A stretch of 64,000 nt of DNA from Bacteroidales bacterium. Lineage in GTDB: Bacteria > Bacteroidota > Bacteroidia > Bacteroidales > VadinHA17. The position numbers and the translations under genes were made by a program. The notes beneath the pieces are model-generated. The model had not been told where the DNA came from, made no database searches, and saw nothing but the letters and a program-made list of their open reading frames with translations. The stretch spans positions 1 through 64,000 of the forward strand of contig JARKQN010000029.1 in assembly GCA_029974835.1 (NCBI GenBank), given 5' to 3'. This document shows positions 8,924 through 29,827 of the stretch, one piece after another; position 1 is the first letter of the stretch, and each line of letters opens with the position of its first letter.

Positions 8924-10099
8924 CTATATAAGCCTTAATGCCGTGCTGCGGCTGGTCAGCCTCCGGTTGACCAGGTCGGTGTTTTTTATCAGGACAAGTC
9001 CGGGCCTTTTGCCCGGCTCAATGGATCCTGCCCATGAGGTTTCACCCAGCGCCAGGGCACCGTTAAATGTTGCCCACCTGACCAGCGTTTCAAGATTAAT
9101 CTCAGGGAAATGTGCGCCGATGGTCTTAAGTTCGGAAAGCATATCGAGTCTGCTGTTCGAGGCAAGGCTGTCGGTGCCGATCACAATATTGCATCCTTCT
9201 TCGTAAAGGAGTCTTACGGGAGGCATTTTCCCTGCAATATACCGGTTTGACTCAGGGCAAAGACAGTAGAAAAGTCCGGGTCTTTTTTTCAGGGCTCCGA
9301 TCTGTTCATTTGTAATGAATGTGTTGTGGACAAGAATAAGATTGCCCGATGAGGTTACCTCTTCAAGGATGGCTGTTACATGATCACTGACCGTCAACGG
9401 TTTCTGCCCCGGAGGGATATAGTGCCTGTATGTATCCATCAGAGGGCCTGAATGGTTCCGGAGGAAGGGTATTTCCCATTCCGACTCCATAAAGTGGATC
9501 GAAGATAATGAGTTGCTGCCGCAGAGATCTTTAAGCTTTCTGAAGAGAGGCACAGGCAGGGAATAGACGGAGTGCGGAGTCATATTCCAGGTGAGTCCGG
9601 TGTCTGAGGCAGCATTTGCAACGGCAAGGGCTTCTTTGATTCGTTCGGAGGCCCGGTTATGATCGATGCCGAAAACCTCTATCAGGTTCGAATATCTGAC
9701 AGTGCTTCTGGTCTTTAGTCCGAATGTGTCGGGAGAATTGCAAATATCGGCACAGAGCACAACACCTCCTGCCGCCATTTCTCTGTCCGCCTCTGCCGCA
9801 CTCTTTTGCCTGTCGCGGGAAATATTGAATCTCTTTTCGTTCAGTTCGAAAAGAAATCCCTGAAGACCTGTCCCGGGAGTAATCTCGTTCCTGAGATATG
9901 AAAGTTCAAGGTGGCAGTGGCAGTTTACAAACCCGGGGATGATAATCCCGTTGTAAAATTCAACGTTGGCCAGTTCCGGGAGATTACCACCGGTATCGGT
10001 GATGCTTATTATGGTACCGTCGTCATCGGCCTTTATGACCGGTCGGCTAAGTACCGGGCCCGTTACGGTATAAACATGCTGGGCCGAAAAAAGTCTCAT
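8924..10099 (-). CDS. Amidohydrolase family protein (MtaD/SsnA-like)
   Basis: IIPGFVNCHCHLELS (HxH), SSIHFMESEWE, LVHNTF and GTDSLASNSRLDMLSEL. Confidence 0.8.
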   Translation of the reverse strand: MRLFSAQHVYTVTGPVLSRPVIKADDDGTIISITDTGGNLPELANVEFYNGIIIPGFVNCHCHLELSYLRNEITPGTGLQGFLFELNEKRFNISRDRQKSAAEADREMAAGGVVLCADICNSPDTFGLKTRSTVRYSNLIEVFGIDHNRASERIKEALAVANAASDTGLTWNMTPHSVYSLPVPLFRKLKDLCGSNSLSSIHFMESEWEIPFLRNHSGPLMDTYRHYIPPGQKPLTVSDHVTAILEEVTSSGNLILVHNTFITNEQIGALKKRPGLFYCLCPESNRYIAGKMPPVRLLYEEGCNIVIGTDSLASNSRLDMLSELKTIGAHFPEINLETLVRWATFNGALALGETSWAGSIEPGKRPGLVLIKNTDLVNRRLTSRSTALRLI

Positions 10100-12096
10100 T
10101 GCATTTCACCTTTGAAGAGTTTTATGCCTGTGATCTTTACATGCTTCACCCAGCGGCCGGGTTGGGGATCGTGGTCAAGTAACCAGCCCCGGATATGGGT
10201 AAAAGTTGTATCCCTGAGTTCGCTGCTGACTGTGTACTCATGGTTCATGCCGTCATTTATCAGGTAAATGGCATCCCAGTATTCCCTTTTACCCTCTTTT
10301 GTTGAATCAGCCTTCCAGAAGAAAACATTTGTCCGGAGGTTTAAACTGTTGTCGTCGGGGTACACCGTACCGTTAAATGTAAGATGATAGAAGCCTTTCT
10401 GCCTTACGGGGATGCTGAAAAAGACCTTTTCGTAGGAGCCGTCTGCAGGAATGGAAAAGGATGGTTTTAGATTCCACAGATTGCCGGGCTGGTTCTGGCT
10501 ATCCTCCGACAGTATTCTTGATTCTGATTCACTGAGCCTGGCCAGTACCTGGTCGAATATCTTTTCCAGTTTTCTGGGATTCTTAGCGATATAATATTTA
10601 ATTGTCTGATCGAGCTTGTCCTTGGTATATCCGTACGACCCGATTATATCCACGTAATTCAGGTTGGAGTCCTTCGTTTCGAACATATTTTTTATGCTGG
10701 GCTGCGAAAGCAATCCGTCGGCGAGGTACATTTCGGTAAGAATGTTCACCATCTTTTCGGGCGGGATGGTATCTTTTCTTCTAACGTTAGTGGAAGAGTG
10801 GCTGCAGGAGGCGATCAGCAGAACCAGAATAAGTGATGCCACAGTCATGGCACTTTTCCGGTCAGGTAATCCGGCGCTCCCGTCTGAAAGATATTTTCTG
10901 GAGAGGTAACGTACCGGATACCATGCAGCCAGAAACCCTATAAGAAGAACCGTGGCCGGTACAATTATGAAATCTGTAAGACTCATTCTTACGGGGTAAG
11001 CATTCATCATAAGAGTTTCACTGTTGAATTTAACGACACCGTAATTCTGCTGGATATAACAGACAATAAACCCTGCCAGCATACCGGCTGCAGCTCCAAG
11101 AATGGAGATGAGCCATCCTTCGAGAAGGAATATTTTTTTTATTAACCCGTTATCGGCGCCCAGGCTCCGGAGGATTTTAATATCTCTTTCCTTTTCGATG
11201 ATAAGCATCGTAAGCGAACCGATAATATTAAAAGAGGCAATAATCAGGATGAGGGTAAGGATAATGAATATGGCGAGGCGTTCCGACCGCATCACTTTAT
11301 AGAAAATCTCTTTCTGTTCATACCTTGTTTTTACTTCAAACCGGGGGCCGGCGAATGCTTTTATGGCATCGCGCACCGATTCAGCAGTGAATTTTGGATT
11401 TGTGCGCACATCAATTGCACTGACTTCGTCGGTGTATTCAAAAAGTTCCCGCGCAAAATCTATCGGGACAAAGAGATGTTTTGAATCAAATTCCTGGTCT
11501 ATCTGAAATATTCCGGCCGGCGTGATATAACGGTCGATAAATGCATTCTCGGGGTCGGGCGTAACACTTCCCGTCCTCCTCGGAACATATATATGAAGCG
11601 GCGTTATGAAATTTATATTAAGCCCGAGGTAATTTGCCACACCTGCACCGACAACCGCCTGGGGTCTGCCTCCCGGACTCATAAGGGAGAATTCGCCGTC
11701 AATCATTGTGCTGTCGACCCGTGTAACCCTGGAATAATTTGTGTCAACACCCCTCACCGTGGCGATGTACTGCCTCTCGCCGTATTTGAGAAGCGAATTT
11801 TCTTCGAGGATCATGGAATATGAAATTACCCCGTCAAGGGAGTCAAGCCGGGTGAGGAAGGCTTCATCTGGGGTGAAAACCTTTCCCTCTGAAGCTGAAA
11901 TCCTGATATCGGGGTCAAAGGCATTGAATATGCGGTTCACCAGTTCCTCAAGACCATTGAAAACCGAAAGTATTATTATCAATGCCATTGTGCCGACAGT
12001 AACCCCGGCTACCGAGACTGCGGAAATAACATTTATTGCGTTCCTCGATTTTTTTGCGAACAGGTATCTGGTTGCTATGTAAAAAATGAATCTCAC
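10096..12096 (-). CDS. LolC/LolE-like FtsX-type permease fused in frame to a DUF4296-like lipoprotein domain
   Basis: N-terminal MRFIFYIATRYLFAKKSRNAINVISAVSVAGVTVGTMALI and C-terminal FtsX TMs; continues without a stop into MTVASLILVLLIASCSHSS (lipobox-like; internal ATG at 10848) and KMVNILTEMYLADGLL... Confidence 0.8.
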   Translation of the reverse strand: MRFIFYIATRYLFAKKSRNAINVISAVSVAGVTVGTMALIIILSVFNGLEELVNRIFNAFDPDIRISASEGKVFTPDEAFLTRLDSLDGVISYSMILEENSLLKYGERQYIATVRGVDTNYSRVTRVDSTMIDGEFSLMSPGGRPQAVVGAGVANYLGLNINFITPLHIYVPRRTGSVTPDPENAFIDRYITPAGIFQIDQEFDSKHLFVPIDFARELFEYTDEVSAIDVRTNPKFTAESVRDAIKAFAGPRFEVKTRYEQKEIFYKVMRSERLAIFIILTLILIIASFNIIGSLTMLIIEKERDIKILRSLGADNGLIKKIFLLEGWLISILGAAAGMLAGFIVCYIQQNYGVVKFNSETLMMNAYPVRMSLTDFIIVPATVLLIGFLAAWYPVRYLSRKYLSDGSAGLPDRKSAMTVASLILVLLIASCSHSSTNVRRKDTIPPEKMVNILTEMYLADGLLSQPSIKNMFETKDSNLNYVDIIGSYGYTKDKLDQTIKYYIAKNPRKLEKIFDQVLARLSESESRILSEDSQNQPGNLWNLKPSFSIPADGSYEKVFFSIPVRQKGFYHLTFNGTVYPDDNSLNLRTNVFFWKADSTKEGKREYWDAIYLINDGMNHEYTVSSELRDTTFTHIRGWLLDHDPQPGRWVKHVKITGIKLFKGEMQ

Positions 12097-14542: not shown

Positions 14543-16969
14543 TTACATCAATACCCTGAGTGAGATTATCAGATTGCGACCGGGTGCCGCAATGCCCCAT
14601 GAATAGGGTCTGTACCTGTGATCGAGGATATTTTCACAGCCTGCTGAAAGGAGAGACCACGGGGATACCCTGTAAATTACCTTGAAGTTAAGGGTGTACC
14701 ATCCCGGCGACCAGGGATTTCCGTCTTTGTCGGCAGCATACATGTAAGGCTTGGAGATCTCCGAAGGAGGCATATTTTTATAGGTCTTCGGACCATTAAA
14801 AATAACATTTATGTCGGCCTTTATCCGGCCGCTCTCATATACCAGATGTGAAGAGCCGAACAGGGGGGCGGCATGACGCAGGGGTATGCCTCCCGACTCG
14901 GTGCCTTTCATAAGTGTTACCAGTGACCTCATATACAGTTTCCCGGTGAAATTGGTCTGCAGGGCGGCAGTGGTACCGTACACCCTTGCATATCCGGCGT
15001 TTACAACAGCCTCCACCTTGCTTAATTCTACCTGGTAAATAATGGAATCTGCACCGTTAAACAGGAAGTCGTGCCTTACCATGGCATTTTTAAGCCAGGT
15101 GTAAAAACCATTAAGTTCAATCCTGCAGAATTTCCCGAAATTTTTCTCAATTCCTGCATCTCCGCTTACTGCATATTCGGGTTTCAGACCGGGGTTGGGC
15201 ACCACTACAATCCCGGGGGCCGAATCAAACACCTTTCCGGCATCATCGAGGTTGGGAGCCCTGAACCCGGTGGAGAGATTAAGCGTAAGCCGGTATCCGC
15301 TGCCGGGATTCAATGAAATACCTGCCGACCCGGTTAATGCGCCGTTGGCAATGTTAATTTCGGTAAACGGGAAGTTATAGTAAGTGTTATCGGCTATAGA
15401 TGAATTCAGACTCACATAATTATATCTCAGTCCGGAGTTCAGTGAAAGCTTCTCCGAAGGGGAGTATTTGTAACCTGCATAAACCGAATATCCTGCATAC
15501 TTGTTTTTACCATTCGGATACCTCGACCCGGCGGGTGAAACCTCAAAAGTTTTTATGTTTCTTGTCCGGGCTACCGATTTAATGTCGTTTAAAAAGAGTT
15601 CCGTCCCATAGAAGAAGAGGTGTTTCCTGTTGCTGCTCGTTTTGTCAAAATCGGCATTCAGTGAATAAATGGTCACCTTCTCGAACTGTTCGTTTATCAG
15701 AAGTTTGCCGAGAGCCCTGTCGTGCCGGCTTTCACGGTAATCCTGTCGTGCTGCGGTTATATTAAATTCATCAAAAAGAATTGATTTACCGGTGTAGTTG
15801 ATCCGGAGATTGTTCATCATCCACAACTGCGGTCCGTAGTACCATTCGCCGTACCGGAGTTTGCCCGATTTGTACTGTATGAGACGGTCGTATCTCGGAA
15901 CGTTGGAAAGGGCCGAATAGTGATTTGCCAGAACAATGTCGAGATTACGTGACGGCTGATACCTGAACTTAAAAGTCGTGTTGATCTGACTGTATCCGGA
16001 GTATACCTGCAGGTCAGGATCAGGATTGCTTACAATCGTATCGGTCCCGTTAACAGTCTTCACAAATTCGGGCCTGCGGTATTCCGGATGCCTGCGGGAT
16101 CCCATTCTGAGATCGTCGAAGCTTGAATATGAGATGCTTGCCAGAAATCCTGTCTTGCGAAAACCTCCGTTGATTTTTATCTGTGATGTCTTTTCATTGT
16201 CGGCCGAGGAGTACCTGAGAAAAGCTTCCGATTTAAATACGGGATTTTTTCCCGGAGAAAGCATTACCTTATCTGAATGAAAATCCATCACCCCGCCGAT
16301 GGCATCACTGCCGTAAACCACCGCTCCGGGGCCAAAGATAATCTCGGCCGACTGCATTACGTTGGGATCGAGTGAAATAACATTCTGAATATTTCCTTCA
16401 CGGTAAATGGCATTGTTCATTCTGACGCCGTCAATTACAATCAGTACACGGTTGGTGGCAAACCCGCGTATCATAGGGCTTCCTCCGCCCAGCTGGCTCT
16501 TCTGCACATACACTTCTCCCGATGAGGCAATCAGATCCGCGGCCGTTTGCGGATTATTGAAAACTATGGATTGAGAAGGGATGACTGAAATGCGGTTGGG
16601 AACAGTGATTCTCTCCTGTTCCCACCTGTTGGCCGAAATGACAAACTCTTCAAACTCAAAAACTCTTCTGGCAAGAAGAATCGTATCGCCGGCGCTTTTT
16701 ATTTCCGCCACAGTCAGACATGAACGTTCATACCCGAAAAGCTGAAAACAGAGAGTTTCCTCATCGCCCCTTCCCGATATATCTATTTTCCCGCTATTCC
16801 CCGTGAAACTTATTAACCTTCCCCCTGAGTCAAGCATGGCAACATCCTGAAGGGGTTTTCTGTCATCCCTGTCTGCCAGAATAACCTCCTGCCCCGATGC
16901 CAGTGCCGCGATAATCAGAAGTATTGTTATACTGCAAATCCTTTTCACCCGGTTCAGAAAAAGAAACAT
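14543..16969 (-). CDS. TonB-dependent outer-membrane receptor, hemoglobin/heme receptor-like
   Basis: Plug domain: QSQLGGGSPMIRGFATNRVLIVIDGVRMNNAIYREGNIQNVISLDPNVMQSAEIIFGPGAVVYGSDAIGGVMDF; C-terminal barrel signature ending RNLIISLRVLM. Substrate assignment is weak. Confidence 0.85.
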   Translation of the reverse strand: MFLFLNRVKRICSITILLIIAALASGQEVILADRDDRKPLQDVAMLDSGGRLISFTGNSGKIDISGRGDEETLCFQLFGYERSCLTVAEIKSAGDTILLARRVFEFEEFVISANRWEQERITVPNRISVIPSQSIVFNNPQTAADLIASSGEVYVQKSQLGGGSPMIRGFATNRVLIVIDGVRMNNAIYREGNIQNVISLDPNVMQSAEIIFGPGAVVYGSDAIGGVMDFHSDKVMLSPGKNPVFKSEAFLRYSSADNEKTSQIKINGGFRKTGFLASISYSSFDDLRMGSRRHPEYRRPEFVKTVNGTDTIVSNPDPDLQVYSGYSQINTTFKFRYQPSRNLDIVLANHYSALSNVPRYDRLIQYKSGKLRYGEWYYGPQLWMMNNLRINYTGKSILFDEFNITAARQDYRESRHDRALGKLLINEQFEKVTIYSLNADFDKTSSNRKHLFFYGTELFLNDIKSVARTRNIKTFEVSPAGSRYPNGKNKYAGYSVYAGYKYSPSEKLSLNSGLRYNYVSLNSSIADNTYYNFPFTEINIANGALTGSAGISLNPGSGYRLTLNLSTGFRAPNLDDAGKVFDSAPGIVVVPNPGLKPEYAVSGDAGIEKNFGKFCRIELNGFYTWLKNAMVRHDFLFNGADSIIYQVELSKVEAVVNAGYARVYGTTAALQTNFTGKLYMRSLVTLMKGTESGGIPLRHAAPLFGSSHLVYESGRIKADINVIFNGPKTYKNMPPSEISKPYMYAADKDGNPWSPGWYTLNFKVIYRVSPWSLLSAGCENILDHRYRPYSWGIAAPGRNLIISLRVLM

Positions 16970-17131
16970 AAAGATAATTAATATTTATCTTTTCAACGGG
17001 CCGTAACAAATCAGTATCTTTTTTTCCTGCAACCAGGGAGCCCTGCCCGAGTGTCTTTAATGGAAAGACCCTGTACAGTGAACCCGTTTTAATTGTTATT
17101 TTTGAATCAATTAATGATTCCGGGTACGGTA

Positions 17132-19834
17132 ATGGCCAGAAGAATCGTCATATTGACAATAGTGCTGCTTGCAGGCCTTGTAACCCTGTTTGTCTATATT
17201 TATAAGGGTCACAGGAATATGCTGGCCGACCCCTTTGAAGTGGTACCTGCCGGTGCGCCATTCCTTATTGAAACCGGCAGTCTGCCGGCACTCTTTAATG
17301 CGGTTGCTGAAAACAATCAGCTTTTCAGGGAGCTTGTCAAGACAGGGGGGATGGAGAAATTTACCGCCGGGTTTAACGCAGTGAGGGCTTTCCTTAACAG
17401 ACCGGAAGTGACAGGGACAATCGAAAACAGAAAAGCATTGGTTTCATTTCATTATAACCGTGACGGAAAGCTGGCGCCCCTCCTTATTCTTACTTTACCT
17501 CCGGATGCAGGTTTCAGGGAGGTGGAATCTTTATTAAGATCAAAGGATGAACTTGTGGTGACGCGATTAAAAGGCACAGGAAGGAAAATGAAAATCTGGC
17601 CGGCCCGGGGAAGTTTAAAAGATACAGTTTACCTGGCCTGGTCTCCGGGCCTGATCATATGTTCACCTTCTGAAGATCTGATTGCAATGGCAGAGGATGC
17701 AGCAGCGGGGGGGATGAATATTAGGCAGGCCAAGGGGATGGACCGGCTTATTGCCACGGCAGGAAAGGAAGGTGACAGAATCTATGTCATTTTTTCCAAC
17801 ACGGGCAGACTCTCCGAGATTATTACAGGAAAGACCGATAACGATCTGAAAAAATTCATTCAGGAAATGTCAGGGAGTGCATGCTTCGACATCTTTATAA
17901 ATGAACAGGGTTATGTACTTGGCGGATATGCACACACCGGCGACAGCAGCCGTATAATGCCAGGCGGCAGGGCAGATAGTGAGGTTTCCTTTTCAACATA
18001 CGGCTATCTGCCAGCCGGAGTCAGCATGTTCGAAACAATCCTTTTAAAAGAACAAACTACGGAAAATAATGCCGTAAAAGATTCACTTGAACCGGTCGCT
18101 GATGTTGCCGCGAAACTGAAACCTTACACAGGACATGAATTCACCAGGGCCCGCCTCTCCGCAGAAAAAGGAGGGAAGGAGAAGAGCACCCTCTTTATCT
18201 GGTCGCTTTCCAATAAGGACGCTGCAGAAAGAGTTGTATATGAGGAATTTAAAAACTGGATTCGGGATAATAACCTGAAGGAAAATGACTTCATTGCCTG
18301 GTTCGAACCCGACGACCAGATAAAAGTCCCCGTTTTTTCAACTCCGTTCCCGAGGCTGTCCGGTAAACTCAGCGGTATATTGAGGATGTCTGTTGCAGAT
18401 TCGGTAATAGCCTTCGGTGATGATTTCATGATTACCTCCGATAACAGGGAAGCAGTTATGAGAGTGTTATATGATAACATTCTCCACCGTACAATAATCA
18501 ACGATTTGGAATTCAGGAATCTGGAGTCGACACTCCCGAGCAGGGCAGGATATTTTTCCTGGCTTGTACCGGCCGCAAATCTGGATATTCTCGGTGGAAT
18601 ATTATCTGACACTCTTATAAGGAAACTTAACGACAATATTGTCTCCCTGAAAAAAATCAGTTGCGCCGGGCTTCGTTTTGTTCCAAGTAACGAGATGATA
18701 TACGGTACAGTGTCAATAAGATTTGTTGAAAATGTCAGTGACGATACCGGAACGGAGTGGGAAACAAAACTCGATGGAATGGTAACCGGAAGGCCTTTCT
18801 TTTTTGTAAATCACAATACCGGGGCAAAAGAAATTGTGGTGCAGGATAACAAAAATAACCTGTATCTTGTGAATGCCGCGGGCAGGATATTATGGAAAGT
18901 TAATGTAAATGAAGCCGTTAACGGCAGTTTCTTTATGATAGATTATTACCGTAACGGCAAAAACCAGATTTTCTTTGCGGGAAGGGAATACCTGCACCTG
19001 ATCGACCGCAACGGAAACTACGTGGAAAGATTCCCCGTTAAACTCAGAGCCCCTGCTTCAGGCCCGGCCACACTTTACGATTATGATAAGAATCTTGACT
19101 ACAGGATATTTGTACCGGGCAACGATAAACTTGTCTATTTATACGATAAAGCGGGCAACGTAGTAAAAGGATGGAAGCCTTTCAAAACGTCTGCTCCTGT
19201 TACAACCGAAGTGAAATATTTCAGGGTATCGGGAAAGGATTATATTGTGGTGACCGACGGGGGTTCCCTGAATATTCTTGACAGGACGGGCAATATCAGG
19301 GTAAAAACTGCAAAGAATATCTTAACTGCCGCAAAGTCGGAGATAAGGCTTACCAATGGTGTCCCGCCTTCAATTGTCTGCACCGCTCCCGACGGAACAG
19401 TTCAGTTTATCTCTTTCGATGGCACAGTTTCGACCGCCACCCTCGGAGAATTTTCTGCCGGACATGCCTTTGATTATTTTGATATGGACGGTGACGGATA
19501 CGGCGAATTTATTTTTATTGACAAAGGTAAATTGTATCTTTATAGTCATGACCGTACCGGTAAGTTTGTGCGGGATTTCGGCACTGAATCACTTGCCGGT
19601 CCATGGTCTTTTGTATTTTCTGCAACTGACAGAATGGCGGGTGTTTTTAACCGGCAAACCAGTCAGATCTTTCTGATCGACCGGAATGGAAATGACGCCG
19701 GAGGTTTTCCCCTTAAAGGGTTCTCACCCTTCTCGGTCGGCATGCTCTCTGCCAGGGGAGGTTTTAATCTTATTACGGGGGGAAGTGACAATTTTCTTTA
19801 TAATTATAAGTTAGATATTACAGGGAAAAAATAA
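17132..19834 (+). CDS. Membrane-anchored periplasmic protein: DUF3352-like N-terminal region plus C-terminal beta-propeller-like repeats
   Basis: N-terminal TM (RRIVILTIVLLAGLVTLFVYIY); C-terminal repeats LYLVNAAGRILW, LHLIDRNGNYVERFP, VYLYDKAGNVVKGW, LNILDRTGNIRV, LYLYSHDRTGKFV, IFLIDRNGNDAGGFP; one DMDGDGYGEF Ca-binding-like loop. Start refined from 17093; -7 box TATTTTTG at 17097-17104. Confidence 0.7.
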   Translation: MARRIVILTIVLLAGLVTLFVYIYKGHRNMLADPFEVVPAGAPFLIETGSLPALFNAVAENNQLFRELVKTGGMEKFTAGFNAVRAFLNRPEVTGTIENRKALVSFHYNRDGKLAPLLILTLPPDAGFREVESLLRSKDELVVTRLKGTGRKMKIWPARGSLKDTVYLAWSPGLIICSPSEDLIAMAEDAAAGGMNIRQAKGMDRLIATAGKEGDRIYVIFSNTGRLSEIITGKTDNDLKKFIQEMSGSACFDIFINEQGYVLGGYAHTGDSSRIMPGGRADSEVSFSTYGYLPAGVSMFETILLKEQTTENNAVKDSLEPVADVAAKLKPYTGHEFTRARLSAEKGGKEKSTLFIWSLSNKDAAERVVYEEFKNWIRDNNLKENDFIAWFEPDDQIKVPVFSTPFPRLSGKLSGILRMSVADSVIAFGDDFMITSDNREAVMRVLYDNILHRTIINDLEFRNLESTLPSRAGYFSWLVPAANLDILGGILSDTLIRKLNDNIVSLKKISCAGLRFVPSNEMIYGTVSIRFVENVSDDTGTEWETKLDGMVTGRPFFFVNHNTGAKEIVVQDNKNNLYLVNAAGRILWKVNVNEAVNGSFFMIDYYRNGKNQIFFAGREYLHLIDRNGNYVERFPVKLRAPASGPATLYDYDKNLDYRIFVPGNDKLVYLYDKAGNVVKGWKPFKTSAPVTTEVKYFRVSGKDYIVVTDGGSLNILDRTGNIRVKTAKNILTAAKSEIRLTNGVPPSIVCTAPDGTVQFISFDGTVSTATLGEFSAGHAFDYFDMDGDGYGEFIFIDKGKLYLYSHDRTGKFVRDFGTESLAGPWSFVFSATDRMAGVFNRQTSQIFLIDRNGNDAGGFPLKGFSPFSVGMLSARGGFNLITGGSDNFLYNYKLDITGKK

Positions 19835-19838
19835 AACC

Positions 19839-21941
19839 ATGAAAAGGACCAGAATACTTATCTTACTGACACTCCTGGCACTATTCCATACAGGATGTGT
19901 GAAGGAGGTATATAACCTCGACAAGCTGTCGGACAGGATGAAGCTTTCTCCGGTTTTTGCTTTTCCTGCAGCAAAAGGGGATTTAACACTTTCCGACATA
20001 GTTAAACCTGATGACACTGTAAGGTTTGACAATGACAATTTTATCAGGATTGTCCTGAAAAAAGACTCTGTCTTCGACCTGAGGCTTAAAGATTTCTACA
20101 ACTTCTCCGACATAGCTTCGCTCGACAGGGGATATGTATTCGGCGAAGTTGAATTCAGTGACTTTACAGCAGGCAAAAGCATAACGCTTAACACCATCAG
20201 TCTCAATTTCACACCTGCCCTCAGGGCAACCTTCCTTTCACTCGATGACGGAAATCCGCATGACTTTCCCTCATTCCCTTCAACCAACACAGGAGAGCAC
20301 AGTTTCGGGCCTTTTGCAGGCTTTGAGAACGCCCTGCTCTCATCGGGTATGCTGAAGATAAAGGTGAAGAATAACCTTACGGCGCCCCTTAATGATATTA
20401 AGGTACATGTCTATAACAGTCCGGACCACTCAGAGGTGACTCCTGAAGTAACAATACCATCACTTCTTCCGGGTGAATCTGACAGCATCTCTGTGAACAT
20501 TGCGGGCAGGAGCATCAGAAACAACATGGTTGCTGCAATAGTTTTTACGGGTAGTCCCGGAGCCTCAAATGTAATTGTTGACATGGATCAGACGGTGGAT
20601 GTTTCGCTGCATGGGTATGATCTTGAGGCGGTATCGGGAAGACTGATTGTACCTGAACAGGTACTGGGTTCACCAAGCGGAAAAGATACAATCGACCTCG
20701 ACCCCGGAACGGATATTGAGATCGAGAGCGGAAAAATACTGACAGGATCACTCGCATTTACAGCAATCTCCGGCAGTCCGCTGAACACCACAATTAAAAT
20801 CACCTTACCCTCAACATCCCGGTCCGGTACCCCTGTTCAGGAGAATATTATCATTCCTCCCCTGCAGACGGTTAACGGATCGGTCAGCCTGAACAACACA
20901 ACAGCCGACTTCAGCACCGATTTCAATAAGCCTTATAACAGGCTGCCGGTCAACTATGAAATAAAAGTAAGTTCCGGCGGGAATATGATAAATTTCAGCA
21001 GTCTCGACGAGGTGCAGCTGAAGTTAACCATGCCCGATCCCGATATTGACTATCTTAAAGGTTATTTCGGGCAGAAAACAGAGGAGATTGAAAAGGATAC
21101 CATTTTTACGGAACTGGATGATATTCTTGAAAAAATAACCGGTAGTTTCCACATCGCAAATCCTTCCATTAAGCTGAATTATTCCAATTCATTTGGTATA
21201 CCGGTGGGGATTACCTTTGAAGCAAGAGGCAGGAGAGATGCGACTGCTGTTAACCTCGACCTGGCACCTTTTACAATTGATTATCCGGCTTTCCCTGTGA
21301 GAGATATCACCTCATCCTTTAAGATTGATAAAACGAATTCAAAGTTGGCCGATATTGTGTCGCTTCCCCCTACGGAGGTTTCATTCTCGGGTTCGGGTAA
21401 ATTAAATCCGTCAGCACCTTCCGGGACGAGGAACAATTACGTTTTCGGCAACAGCCGTTTCATTGCCTCCCTCGAAATTGAAGTGCCGCTTGAATTGTGG
21501 ATAAACAATCTGCAGTTTGCCGATACAGTCGATAATTTCCTGAAAAGTGACAGTGAAGATGATGATTCTCCTCTGAAGCCCGAAAACATGGAATTTTTCA
21601 GGCTGAAGATAACTGCCTCAAACGGCTTCCCGCTGGGTGCTTCGCTGAAAGTAATACTTTATGACTCACTCACAGCAACAAATCTGCACACAATTAATGC
21701 TCCCGATATAATTAAACCGGCGCTTGTCGATGCTTCAGGAAAGGTGACTTCGGCAGTTGAGTCGGAAACAATTATCGACTTCGACAAGGATTTCTTCTCA
21801 AAATCGTCACAGGCCGATAAGATGATATTTGTATTTACACTTGTCACCTCGGGCGGAGGCACTAAAGACGTGAAATTTTATTCCGATTACAAGTTAAACT
21901 TCAAGGCAAACCTGCTGGTTAAACCAAACGTGATATTTTAA
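19839..21941 (+). CDS. Large uncharacterised lipoprotein (700 aa)
   Basis: Signal peptide with lipobox-like FHTGC (MKRTRILILLTLLALFHTGC); rest is beta-rich with no family I can name. Confidence 0.7.
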   Translation: MKRTRILILLTLLALFHTGCVKEVYNLDKLSDRMKLSPVFAFPAAKGDLTLSDIVKPDDTVRFDNDNFIRIVLKKDSVFDLRLKDFYNFSDIASLDRGYVFGEVEFSDFTAGKSITLNTISLNFTPALRATFLSLDDGNPHDFPSFPSTNTGEHSFGPFAGFENALLSSGMLKIKVKNNLTAPLNDIKVHVYNSPDHSEVTPEVTIPSLLPGESDSISVNIAGRSIRNNMVAAIVFTGSPGASNVIVDMDQTVDVSLHGYDLEAVSGRLIVPEQVLGSPSGKDTIDLDPGTDIEIESGKILTGSLAFTAISGSPLNTTIKITLPSTSRSGTPVQENIIIPPLQTVNGSVSLNNTTADFSTDFNKPYNRLPVNYEIKVSSGGNMINFSSLDEVQLKLTMPDPDIDYLKGYFGQKTEEIEKDTIFTELDDILEKITGSFHIANPSIKLNYSNSFGIPVGITFEARGRRDATAVNLDLAPFTIDYPAFPVRDITSSFKIDKTNSKLADIVSLPPTEVSFSGSGKLNPSAPSGTRNNYVFGNSRFIASLEIEVPLELWINNLQFADTVDNFLKSDSEDDDSPLKPENMEFFRLKITASNGFPLGASLKVILYDSLTATNLHTINAPDIIKPALVDASGKVTSAVESETIIDFDKDFFSKSSQADKMIFVFTLVTSGGGTKDVKFYSDYKLNFKANLLVKPNVIF

Positions 21942-21961
21942 GATAATAAAAAACCTCTGAT

Positions 21962-23434
21962 ATGTTCAGAAAGTCAATTACCGCGCTTATTGCACTGGCG
22001 ATCTTCAGCTTATCCGTGAGAGGCCAGAACGGGCAACCGCTTTACTATATGAACCTGCCCCAGAATCACCTGTTTAACCCGGCCCTGCGGCCATCTAACA
22101 ATTTCTACCTCGGGATAGGCATAACCGGAATAAATGTCAATGTAAACAATAACTTTTTTAATCTTTCAGATGTCCTGATACCGGGGGCTTCAGATTCTTT
22201 AATAACTTTTCTTCACCCCGATTACGATATAAACAAATTTCTGGGCACGCTTAAAAAAAGTAATTTCCTTACTCCCGGATTCAATCTGCAGCTTTTCGGG
22301 CTGGGGTTTAATGCGGGCAATGATTTGTATATCTCGCTGGATATAATAGAAAGGGTTGAGGGAAATATTTCTGTTCCCGGTGACCTTCTGAAACTGGGAC
22401 TGGGGGGTAATGAAGACTTCGTTGGAAAGACGATTGATCTTAACAGTCTCAATGCCGGCCTGATATGGTACCGCGAGGCAAGCCTTGGTTTCTCAAAACT
22501 TGCAGGTGAAAAACTACGGATCGGGGCAAGGGCGGGAATACTGTTCGGCATGGCAGGGCTCAATCTGGATAACAGGAGTCTGTCTCTTACTGTCAATGAT
22601 GACTATACTCATACGTTCAATGCCAATCTGATGGCAAATCTCAGCGGCCCTGTCGAAGTCTATTTTGATGCGGATAATAATCCTGACAGTCTCTGTTTTG
22701 ACGAAGAAGTCTTAAAATCTGCATCATTCTATCTCAATACGCGGAATATGGGCTTTGGTCTTGACCTGGGTGCAGTCTACAGTATTTCCCGGAAGCTGAG
22801 TGTATCGGCTGCTGTGACCGGACTGGGATTCATAAAATGGAAGGACCGGATTACAAATATGAAGGCTGAGAGCCAGTTCACCTTCAGCGGTTTCAGTGTG
22901 GACGATGTGGTTAACGGCAGCAAAACATTTGATGAGCTTGCCGATGAGATGCTTGATTCGCTGAAAAACTCATTTGTTTATGAGGATGATGATAAACCTT
23001 TCACAACCATGCTTCATCCTTCTGTAATTCTGGGTGCTTCATATAACCTGACAGAGAAATTCGGTTTCGGTCTTCTTTCGCAGACAATTTTTGCAGGCGG
23101 CGGTATGAGAGAGTCGCTCACCCTCTCTGCAAACCTTAACCTGGGTAATTCTCTCTCTCTGACAGCGGCTTACACTGCCGCCAACCACAGGTACGATAAC
23201 CTGGGTGCCGGACTGGCATTCCGTCTGGGTATGATGCAGATATATCTTATTACCGACCAGATACCGGTTTACTGGAACAGGATAACATCGGAAGGCTCTT
23301 CCTACCCTTTACCGGCCAACTGGAACAAGCTGAATCTGCGTCTCGGGATTAACATGGTTCTGGGCAACAACGTTAAAAAGAAGAATGATAAACCGATGAT
23401 TGTAATAGACCAGCAGGATAAAATAAAAAAATGA
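21962..23434 (+). CDS. DUF5723-like predicted outer-membrane beta-barrel protein
   Basis: Signal peptide, YYMNLPQNHLFNPALRPSNNFYLGIG N-terminus, repeated amphipathic strands, DUF5723/PorV-like layout. Confidence 0.6.
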   Translation: MFRKSITALIALAIFSLSVRGQNGQPLYYMNLPQNHLFNPALRPSNNFYLGIGITGINVNVNNNFFNLSDVLIPGASDSLITFLHPDYDINKFLGTLKKSNFLTPGFNLQLFGLGFNAGNDLYISLDIIERVEGNISVPGDLLKLGLGGNEDFVGKTIDLNSLNAGLIWYREASLGFSKLAGEKLRIGARAGILFGMAGLNLDNRSLSLTVNDDYTHTFNANLMANLSGPVEVYFDADNNPDSLCFDEEVLKSASFYLNTRNMGFGLDLGAVYSISRKLSVSAAVTGLGFIKWKDRITNMKAESQFTFSGFSVDDVVNGSKTFDELADEMLDSLKNSFVYEDDDKPFTTMLHPSVILGASYNLTEKFGFGLLSQTIFAGGGMRESLTLSANLNLGNSLSLTAAYTAANHRYDNLGAGLAFRLGMMQIYLITDQIPVYWNRITSEGSSYPLPANWNKLNLRLGINMVLGNNVKKKNDKPMIVIDQQDKIKK

Positions 23435-23616
23435 TCAGGATAATTCTCATTGTAATTCTTGTACTGCTGTTGTTAAGAATGTTTGCCATGAGCAGGAAGA
23501 GTGCCGTAAGAAAGCCGGAAATCCGGTTCGACAGCAGGATGTACAAAAGAAAAGGTATTTCAGGAAGCATAGGGGAGCTGACCGGTTATGAGGAGATAAA
23601 GAAAAAGAAAGGCTGA
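23431..23616 (+). CDS. Small single-TM protein (61 aa), possibly DUF4834-like
   Basis: MIRIILIVILVLLLLRMFAMSRKS then basic tail; ATG overlaps the stop of the upstream gene (ATGA). Confidence 0.55.
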   Translation: MIRIILIVILVLLLLRMFAMSRKSAVRKPEIRFDSRMYKRKGISGSIGELTGYEEIKKKKG

Positions 23617-26381: not shown

Positions 26382-27218
26382 TTAATATTCCCAGAGGTCG
26401 TGTTCAAAGTTGAATATCTGCATCTTGATCCTTTCTGCTTCGAACATGGCATCCTTACCGGTGGCATACTCCACAATAGCCCTGTCGTCGAACACGTTGG
26501 ACTCGCCGTAGATATAGCTTCCGAATTTCCTCATCATAAAGAGGTCGTCGAAGGAGAGCCGCTGTGAATCGTTGAACTGGTTGAATACCTCTTTCTTTGC
26601 GAGCAGGTCTCTTACCTCGTCGTAGCGAACCCAGAATGTGGGATTGCGTACCGTACGCTGTGTGGCCTGGTCGAAATAGATATAAATCGGGCAGATACCG
26701 ATTATTCTTACATCAAGCTTTGAATGCTTCTTGTCGAAGAACCATTGTTCGTAAATCAGAAGCTGCTTTATGTCGGCAGGATTTGCCTGCTGCTGGTATG
26801 TTGTATCCTTGAAAATCTGTGTGTTGATATCCTGTATCTGGGTGGTTACCAGCCTGGCACCAAGTTTAGCCTCCACATCGGCATACGTGAGGCTAACCGG
26901 GGTTGTATCAACAGCCATGGTATAATCATATGCATTAAGTCTTCCGGCTTTTATTTCATCCAGCAGGATACCCATCAGGTTTTTTCTTCCGTCGGGCATA
27001 GGTCGGAGAGGATAATACAAGGGCTGGTTGATTTTCTCGCGTAAATCAATAACCCTGTATATGAATTTTGACCATACCACATCGGCCTCCCTGAGAAATG
27101 GATAATTTATTTTCGGATTATCAGGGATGGATTTCTGGTAAATGTCTTTAAATGTCTGGGCTTTAACAGACATCCCCATGATAAGGATCAATACTCCGGC
27201 AAATATCGTTCTCTTCAT
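26382..27218 (-). CDS. gldN: Type IX secretion/gliding protein GldN
   Basis: Last gene of the gldKLMN order; [77 protein letters not shown]. Confidence 0.9.
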
Positions 27219-27236
27219 TGTCAGTAATGAATTTTA

Positions 27237-28901
27237 CTAGTTAACTGTTATAATAATGGGAGCCAGTTCCTGAACCCTTTTATCAGGTCCGACTGCTTTA
27301 ATGTTCTCGATAAATAGTTTTCTCCCTTTTGTAAGTCCTTTTATCAGTGCTTTCTGATCGGGTGTGAGGATATTGTTTTTGCTGTCTTTGCTCACGTCAA
27401 AACCTTTTTCGGTTGTTGAAAGCCTGAACTCTGTAATATTATATCTAAGGTCAAAGTCGAAACCCTCGAGTACGGCGAAGAGTGCCTGCTGCGCTTCCAG
27501 TTCACCTTTTGCCACGGAGGGGCTTCCGGTTTTTCCGGCAAACATCGCTACCGGTTTCGGAACAGCTTTCACCCTGAACTCCATTGGTGCGAATGACTGT
27601 ACTTTACCGCTGATTTCAGCCGAAACTACAATCTGAGCCATCTGGCCTACGGCCTCCGTAGCCGGAATAACCTTCCAGTCGCCCGGGAAATTCTCGCCTT
27701 TGGTATTTTTTACCTTGCCTCTTTCGATGGTTCCGTTACGCATCGTAGCCCTTATTTTGTCGGAGCCGACACCCGGAACTGAGATGTCGATCGGGTTTTC
27801 GATTCCGGCATAAACAACGTTCATGGCTGTTGGGGATATAACCACGTTGGGAGCTCCCACAGAGTAGCTTTCCTTGAAGGGATATGAAACTGTAGTCCCG
27901 TCGGGAGCTTTAAGAGTGATAAGACCGCCCCATTCCTTCTGACCCAGTGATGTTGCACGCACCCTGTAAATTCCTCTTCCCGATTCATCGACCGGCAGCG
28001 TAGTGTAGTCGCCAACCATTTCATATTTAACAGAACCGTCAGCAGCGGGGCTTGCCCTGTAAGCACCCAATGTAATGTTAGGTGCCTGTGTTGTATCAAT
28101 GGCGGTAAGGAAGACCTCAGCCTGATATTCGTTCCCCTGCATCACGTATGTAGAGCTGGGTTTTACGATAGCGAAGATTTTGTTGAATTTGAATGAACGG
28201 GCGTCGATCTGTTCATACAGGAAGTTCAGAAGGTCGGTTTCGGCATTTCTGACATCAACCTGCATTTTGGAAAGGATGGTAATAACGGCAACAAGGGGGA
28301 GTGCCTGGAAAGTCAGGTTTTCCCATCTTTCACGTTCACCGGATTTGTTCAGTCCGTCATCGGTATTGAAAATATTCTTGAGCGACTCTTCGATTGCCAT
28401 GTTTTTACCGTTCAGGACATCTTTTATCATGTCATCCCTGTATGATGCAATCAGGGCTTTCAGGTCGTTTGCCTTACCTGCCTCGTTGGAACCTATAAGG
28501 ATTTCGGAAGGAACGTTGTTTTCATCGATTTTCTTTACTTCATCGATTAATACATCTCTTCCCACAACTGCGGGTGTATCTTCACCTTCAGCGGTTTTAA
28601 TGATCTCGATTTTGAGATCCTGCAGGTAATCGAAAAGTTCGTCGGAGCGCTGTTTTACCATATAAGCTTTGTCTCTTGCCGGTCCGGCCTTGGCCGGGTT
28701 TGTTGAGGCAGCCTTGTCGAAGGCTTCGTACATCTGGCTGTTTTTGGCAGCATAGTTGGCAAGAGTACGCGACAGCCCCCTGTCGACATTTTTAAACGCT
28801 TCCACGGCTTCCTTTGATACGTTCAGAGCAAGCATAGCAGTAAGAACCAGGTACATCATCCCGATCATTTTTTGCCGCGGTGACAGCTTCTCGTGAGCCA
28901 T
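27237..28901 (-). CDS. gldM: Type IX secretion/gliding protein GldM
   Basis: MAHEKLSPRQKMIGMMYLVLTAMLALNVSKEAVEAF, characteristic GldM N-terminus. Confidence 0.95.
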   Translation of the reverse strand: MAHEKLSPRQKMIGMMYLVLTAMLALNVSKEAVEAFKNVDRGLSRTLANYAAKNSQMYEAFDKAASTNPAKAGPARDKAYMVKQRSDELFDYLQDLKIEIIKTAEGEDTPAVVGRDVLIDEVKKIDENNVPSEILIGSNEAGKANDLKALIASYRDDMIKDVLNGKNMAIEESLKNIFNTDDGLNKSGERERWENLTFQALPLVAVITILSKMQVDVRNAETDLLNFLYEQIDARSFKFNKIFAIVKPSSTYVMQGNEYQAEVFLTAIDTTQAPNITLGAYRASPAADGSVKYEMVGDYTTLPVDESGRGIYRVRATSLGQKEWGGLITLKAPDGTTVSYPFKESYSVGAPNVVISPTAMNVVYAGIENPIDISVPGVGSDKIRATMRNGTIERGKVKNTKGENFPGDWKVIPATEAVGQMAQIVVSAEISGKVQSFAPMEFRVKAVPKPVAMFAGKTGSPSVAKGELEAQQALFAVLEGFDFDLRYNITEFRLSTTEKGFDVSKDSKNNILTPDQKALIKGLTKGRKLFIENIKAVGPDKRVQELAPIIITVN

Positions 28902-28942
28902 TTTTCAGATAGTTTAGTTAGTTAATGAAAATGATTCAACGC

Positions 28943-29827
28943 TTATTTCACGTTCATGGCAGCCAGCATGTTACCGTAAACGCTGTTAAGGGCTGTCAGG
29001 TTTTCGTTCAGTTTTGTTATCTGTTCCCGGTATTTTTTAGTGTCATCTGCCGAATCGGTCAGGTTTTTGACCAATCCCTGGAGTCCCTTATAGAGAGAGT
29101 CAGACTCTTTAACATGGTCATTTGCACCTTTAAGCTGCATTTCATACACTGTGTTGAGAGCTGAAAGGTTTTTATTGAGCGATTCAAGCTGCTGCTGGTA
29201 TGATTTGCCTCCCATCTCAATAACAGAGAGTGAGTCAGCTATGTTTTTATAGTTCGATCCGGTTTCATTGATAATATTTGCAGTGGCCTTGTACGATTCG
29301 GCCAGTTTGCCGAGGGAATCATCTGCAACCTTTATTGTTTCCATGTACTTTGATGAGGCTGCCGACACATCGACCATTGCGTTCATATTGGCGGTTGCTT
29401 CCCCGATTTTCTTAAGGCCAACGCCAAGCTTCTGAAACAGGTCAGGCGTGATCTCAGCCTTCTCGAGCATTTCATCAAATTTTGCAAGGGCTGCAGATCC
29501 TGCACCGCCTCCGGCTGCGACTCCCATCTTCTGGAAATAGGGATCATGATGTTTGCCTCCTGCGGGGAGTTCAGCTCCCTCTTCGGGGATTCCTGCCAGT
29601 TCGGGATAGACAAGCGACCAGTCTATTTCCTCATGAAGGGGCTCAAATGCCGAGAAGAAGAAGATAATTGATTCTGTGCAGAGACCTATTGTAAGCATGG
29701 TTCCTGCAAATGGCCAGTGCTGGATTTTGAATAGAGCACCGATAATAACAACGGAAGCACCTAAACCATAAAGTTTTGCGATGAAATTCTTCCATCCACT
29801 GCTTTGTACTAATTCTGCTAGGCTCAT
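28943..29827 (-). CDS. gldL: Type IX secretion/gliding motor protein GldL
   Basis: Two N-terminal TM segments (FIAKLYGLGASVVIIGALFKIQHWPFAGTMLTIGLCTESIIFFFSAFEPLHEEIDW) and a coiled-coil C-terminus. Confidence 0.95.
   Translation of the reverse strand: MSLAELVQSSGWKNFIAKLYGLGASVVIIGALFKIQHWPFAGTMLTIGLCTESIIFFFSAFEPLHEEIDWSLVYPELAGIPEEGAELPAGGKHHDPYFQKMGVAAGGGAGSAALAKFDEMLEKAEITPDLFQKLGVGLKKIGEATANMNAMVDVSAASSKYMETIKVADDSLGKLAESYKATANIINETGSNYKNIADSLSVIEMGGKSYQQQLESLNKNLSALNTVYEMQLKGANDHVKESDSLYKGLQGLVKNLTDSADDTKKYREQITKLNENLTALNSVYGNMLAAMNVK

Follow-up and report, generated by a model that had tools for sequence, protein, structure and literature searches.

In the BAM complex of Bacteroidota, the FadL-like barrel BamG holds the surface lipoprotein BamH, and BamG and BamH are reported to be universal (PMC12611786, PMC12578637; both 2025). 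Two further families of outer-membrane barrels, PorP/SprF (PF11751) and FadL/TodX (PF03349), provide the other close points of comparison for the locus described here, in which a barrel of the DUF5723 family (PF18990) is encoded together with a lipoprotein and an anchored propeller protein. The function of DUF5723 is unknown, and its pairing with these two partners appears to be undescribed in the literature searched. A search on DUF5723, DUF3352, DUF4834, and BDI_1231 found no paper, most subscription journals lying outside its scope.

The four genes of the locus and their products

The locus is carried by the window, which here means the whole 64 000-nucleotide stretch of DNA that was analyzed, and the 2.9-Mb assembly to which the window belongs has a single copy of the cluster. 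The genes are termed g1 to g4.

17132..19834, + strand: g1, 900 aa; N-terminal signal-anchor transmembrane (TM) segment, periplasmic half (weakly DUF3352-like in some relatives), and C-terminal PQQ/FG-GAP-type beta-propeller (ORF, Pfam, PDB profile search)
18770..19831, + strand: propeller region of g1, approximate boundaries (Pfam and profile matches), with the DMDGDGYGEF loop at ~ 19480–19511
19839..21941, + strand: g2, 700 aa; lipoprotein with several beta-sandwich domains, PDB 4h3w family (lipobox, model, profile)
21962..23434, + strand: g3, 490 aa; DUF5723 outer-membrane barrel, ~ 14 predicted strands, with an N-terminal NPA motif, N39-P40-A41 (Pfam, model)
23431..23616, + strand: g4, 61 aa; single-TM peptide of DUF4834 type (DUF4834 in its relatives; ATGA overlap with g3)

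A sequence-only reading of this DNA had described four codirectional, close-packed genes, and all four ORFs were found on the + strand with intergenic spacings of 4, 20, and −4 nt, the last being the ATGA overlap of g3 and g4. The lowest start for g1 in the range given by that reading is TTG 17093; ATG 17132 is the likelier one, because most g1 relatives begin at the equivalent MGKR. No terminator-like site was detected between the genes, the sites detected being fewer than in shuffled sequence, and no RNA element was found by Rfam. NCBIfam gave nothing useful, and Pfam gave no match in the four genes to the domains of SusC (TonB-dependent receptor) or SusD.

Several neighboring genes of the window were recorded. 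A TonB-dependent receptor gene (14543–16969, − strand) is divergent from g1, and a homologue is similarly placed in L003, L004, L235, L239, and L240. The ORF at 10096–12096 (− strand) joins an FtsX/LolE-like permease and a short lipoprotein-like domain in a single frame; in the relative L010 these two parts match separate overlapping ORFs, and either a fusion or a frameshift may be responsible. The type 9 secretion genes gldL, gldM, and gldN (26382–29827, − strand) lie a few kb downstream of the cluster, a linkage seen in close relatives only.

The product of g1 begins with a TM segment that looks uncleaved, and the picture of a single-TM propeller protein with a DMDGDGYGEF loop was borne out. 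Similarity to PQQ-type propellers covers the C-terminal ~ 385 aa, with Pfam matches to Beta-prop_ACSF4 (3e-7) and FG-GAP_3 (8e-5), and the propeller profile retrieved PQQ proteins from the PDB, for example 3hxj (1e-6) and 7evf (4e-6). Among ten close relatives, three show a weak match to DUF3352 (PF11832) in the N-terminal half, at best 9e-4, and the window copy itself gives none. A PDB match of g1 to eIF1A was weak and was judged to be due to chance.

The g2 product had been put forward as a giant lipoprotein. The lipobox (...LFHTGC, lipid-bearing Cys20) upholds the second half of that description, whereas great size is not a conserved property, the family ranging from 229 to 717 aa. No Pfam family was found for g2. 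The profile of the g2 family matched PDB entry 4h3w (BDI_1231, a secreted protein of Parabacteroides distasonis) with an E value of 3.8e-4, and 4h3w was also the top Foldseek match of a g2 AlphaFold model of moderate quality (pLDDT 70; E 4e-6, probability 1.0, TM-score only 0.21). In another genome of the order, a Bacteroidales lipoprotein that matches 4h3w at 5e-99 (L135) is encoded directly upstream of DUF5723. Two independent routes thus lead to the same solved relative, and the structural class of g2 is that of 4h3w, a protein of only ~ 330 aa to which no function is assigned. Matches of g2 to hydantoinases in the PDB were weak and were likewise attributed to chance.

A lipoprotein export signal of the form C-X-K-(D/E)2-X has been published (PMC5080379), and most g2 family members come close to it, beginning C-x-K-[D/E] after the lipidation site. 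The combination of K/R at +3 with D/E at +4 was found in 14 of 25 family members against 6 of 54 background lipoproteins, a rough contrast in that the strict lipobox filter missed many true g2 proteins. When the family was listed by hand, K at +3 and D/E at +4 each occurred in 19 of 21 members, often with just one acid. The window protein reads C-V-K-E-V-Y; only one of the six residues that follow its cysteine is acidic, which falls below the two-acid rule of thumb for surface lipoproteins; its exposure on the cell surface is likely from this start, and less than secure given the single acid.

Two variants of the lipoprotein–barrel pair were noted elsewhere. At L131–L133 there is a second, paralogous pair, in which a g2-like lipoprotein (CRK.. 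or CKR.. mature start, WDVD motif) comes before a g3-like barrel that is smaller, at 325–428 aa. In a different family of the class (L138–L140), the gene ahead of DUF5723 encodes a lipoprotein of far smaller size, 183–186 aa, which may be a reduced g2.

The assignment of g3 to DUF5723, already made in the sequence-only reading, was confirmed over the full length of the protein (E=3e-86, 290.8 bits against a cut-off of 26.8). An AlphaFold model of moderate quality (pLDDT 66) showed ~ 14 barrel strands, and its Foldseek matches included TbuX, TodX, CymD, FadL, and the BamG chains of three Bacteroidota species (probability 1.0, TM-score at most 0.37, the scores for the g2 and g3 models being low throughout at 0.2–0.37). 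The N39-P40-A41 motif is invariant in close relatives and lies ~ 17 residues into the mature N terminus. Local-mode HHalign comparisons gave a probability of 88 with PorP/SprF, 58 with FadL-like relatives, and 3 with a TonB-receptor control. With PorP/SprF, g3 shares the position of the NPA motif and the 14 predicted strands, but the Pfam scan gave no match to PF11751 and no type-9 cargo gene was seen next to g3; the score of 88 suggests distant kinship only. With FadL/TodX it shares the predicted fold class and the NPA motif, but there is no Pfam match and the profile comparison is weak. Taken together, the data weakly support placing g3 in the barrel superfamily of the 14-strand FadL/BamG/SprF type.

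The g3 proteins of several other families are extended by TSP3 repeats, by a peptidoglycan-binding OmpA domain (to 2e-25), or by both; Pfam found no OmpA domain in the window protein. One g3 with an OmpA domain (L054:9157–12009) has a further C-terminal stretch that looked SPOR-type by eye, a call that Pfam did not confirm.

For g4, a match to DUF4834 (PF16118) was obtained in four of the five members of its alignment (best 1.9e-5), while the window peptide itself does not score. Distant g4 peptides end in GEYVDYEEV, which is typical of DUF4834.

Conservation of gene order

Gene order was followed in 149 genomes drawn evenly from the class, for which the coordinates of the listed genes were joined, and in 99 genomes of the order, one per family. 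In the class sample, g1 was present in 75 genomes, a g2-type lipoprotein in 117, and DUF5723 in 144. The lipoprotein gene lay directly upstream of g3 at 57 loci from 30 families. Among the best 69 DUF5723 genes, a listed g2 was directly upstream in 54, which is a lower bound because a more divergent lipoprotein occupies that place in several of the remaining 15.

The full order g1-g2-g3 was found at 19 class loci in 10 families. In the order sample, g1 was present in 67 of the 99 genomes and accompanied by a strong DUF5723 gene in 55; for 29 of these 55 families, DUF5723 was encoded on the same strand within 5 kb downstream of g1. Twenty order loci were inspected, 3 with the genes on different contigs and 17 picked for adjacency, and all 17 of the latter read g1-g2-g3 with varied flanks. 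One of them has an opposite-strand gene between g1 and g2; such an insert, of 596 aa, was noted at L250, where the rnhB-g1-g2-g3 series is intact in all other respects. The rnhB gene (RNase HII) often stands immediately before g1 or, where g1 is missing, before g2-g3, a placement which suggests that rnhB-g1-g2-g3 was the ancestral order.

Where g1-g2-g3 was found in close loci, the surroundings from trpS to manC or gldL were mostly kept as well, and synteny in these loci was discounted as evidence for the cluster, the whole trpS-to-gldL region being kept there. A link with the type 9 genes gldLMN or with mlaEF was dismissed, being mostly confined to close relatives. The sequence-only reading had staked its module on a neighborhood kept beyond close relatives, and such a neighborhood was observed: g1-g2-g3 occurs in many families with unrelated flanks, and a g4 gene comes next after g3 in five distant ones.

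Within the cluster, g2-g3 is the tight pair. Of the 75 genomes of the class with g1, 44 have no listed g2-g3 pair, and per-genome presence of g1 and of the pair showed no significant association (31/44/22/52 for both, g1 only, pair only, and neither; p=0.17). It follows that g1 is not obligate, and that its membership rests on adjacency, not on co-occurrence. For g4, a DUF4834-type peptide was encoded 3–148 nt after g3 at 5 of the 17 inspected order loci, each in a different and distant family, and the idea that DUF4834 is a pure hitchhiker was softened on this account. In the class, DUF4834 is mostly found elsewhere, beside genes that resemble carB and a YfhO-like membrane protein, both named from N-terminal sequence only.

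The unit is therefore a graded one, with g2-g3 as its core, g1 as a frequent partner, and g4 as an occasional one. The undescribed four-gene module of the sequence-only reading survives as an order shared across families and not as one indivisible unit. The shared order suggests that the four genes are parts of one cell-envelope device, and the trans-envelope arrangement that had been proposed agrees with the predicted locations of the products.

The main structural rival to this reading, which we regard as somewhat unlikely, is that only g2 and g3 form a functional pair, with g1 and g4 kept in place by operon inertia, g1 being tied to rnhB and g4 to other genes. It accounts for the 38 of 57 g2-g3 loci that are without g1, for the frequent occurrence of g1 after rnhB without any g2-g3 (in many genomes g1 stands alone), and for the usual place of DUF4834 beside the carB-like and YfhO-like genes. 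However, inertia alone poorly explains an order g1-g2-g3 that persists in ~ 29 families of the order while the flanks change, and at 8 class loci g1 is followed directly by DUF5723 without g2.

Candidate functions of the cluster

The interpretation of these data that we favor, at about even chances, is that the cluster encodes an outer-membrane barrel–lipoprotein complex to which g1 reaches out from the inner membrane, and that this complex acts as a station for docking, assembly, or anchoring. Here g3 would form a 14-strand barrel like those of FadL, SprF, and BamG, with a short plug tail bearing the NPA motif, and g2, a lipoprotein of the outer membrane that is probably exposed at the surface, would be held by the g3 barrel as BamH is by BamG. 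Anchored in the inner membrane and reaching into the periplasm, g1 would offer its propeller to the g2-g3 complex, and g4 would be a small accessory TM peptide. The OmpA and TSP3 fusions of g3 in other families indicate that the barrel is often tethered to peptidoglycan. The likeliest job, we infer, would be the docking and assembly or anchoring of other envelope or surface proteins and not that of a simple nutrient channel.

The main functional rivals are a channel and a BAM-like role; these readings, the structural rival, and the preferred one overlap, and the probabilities given to them do not sum to one. If the cluster served transport, g3 would be a working channel of the FadL type that conducts a hydrophobic molecule, g2 a lid at the surface or in the periplasm, and g1 the protein that passes the ligand to the inner membrane. 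The hydrocarbon and fatty-acid channels among the Foldseek neighbors of g3 (TbuX, TodX, CymD, FadL) and its invariant NPA motif, known from the FadL hatch, fit this scheme. It is nonetheless improbable, since no enzyme or inner-membrane transporter consistently accompanies the cluster outside close relatives, the plug tail of only ~ 17 residues before the NPA motif is nearer to PorP/SprF than to FadL, and the OmpA fusions of g3 in other families suggest a structural role.

An accessory assembly role is also quite unlikely. It would make g3 and g2 distant functional counterparts of BamG and BamH, or of the paralogues BamG2 and BamH2, and would have the PQQ propeller of g1 act as a BamB-like part, which the core Bacteroidota BAM seems to lack. 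The architecture of FadL-like barrel plus lipoprotein is the same (PMC12611786, PMC12578637), and the BamG chains are among the top structural matches of g3. Against it, the g2 and g3 profiles matched neither BamG, BamH, nor any other BAM chain in the PDB, in a library from which the genome's own BamA, used as a control query, recovered the BAM entries 9hiv, 9n2d, and 9hjm. DUF5723 was found in just 77 of 118 genomes sampled across the phylum, a patchier distribution than that reported for BamG and BamH; neither bamA nor bamD was observed in the vicinity of the cluster; and g3, in contrast to BamG, can carry OmpA or TSP3 domains. Presumed BamG orthologues in relatives gave no credible match to a PDB chain and were set aside as an unreliable stand-in for BamG. 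The g2-g3 pair may work like BamG-BamH and should not be filed as one.

A further reading can be proposed more speculatively and is itself unlikely: a Bacteroidota envelope machine of DUF5723 barrel, lipoprotein, and inner-membrane propeller that shares no ancestry with BAM, Sus, Mla, or the type 9 secretion system and that, by joining both membranes with the cell wall, would assemble surface structures or anchor them.

Although it is present in 144 of the 149 class genomes, DUF5723 was mentioned by no paper in the literature searched. The family can now be given a regular partner, a lipoprotein for which the structure of a relative is solved, and often an inner-membrane propeller protein as well, and three or four families of 'unknown function' are brought into one testable complex. 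The locus would add a further case to the recent finding that outer-membrane machines of Bacteroidota are built from FadL-like barrels and lipoproteins.
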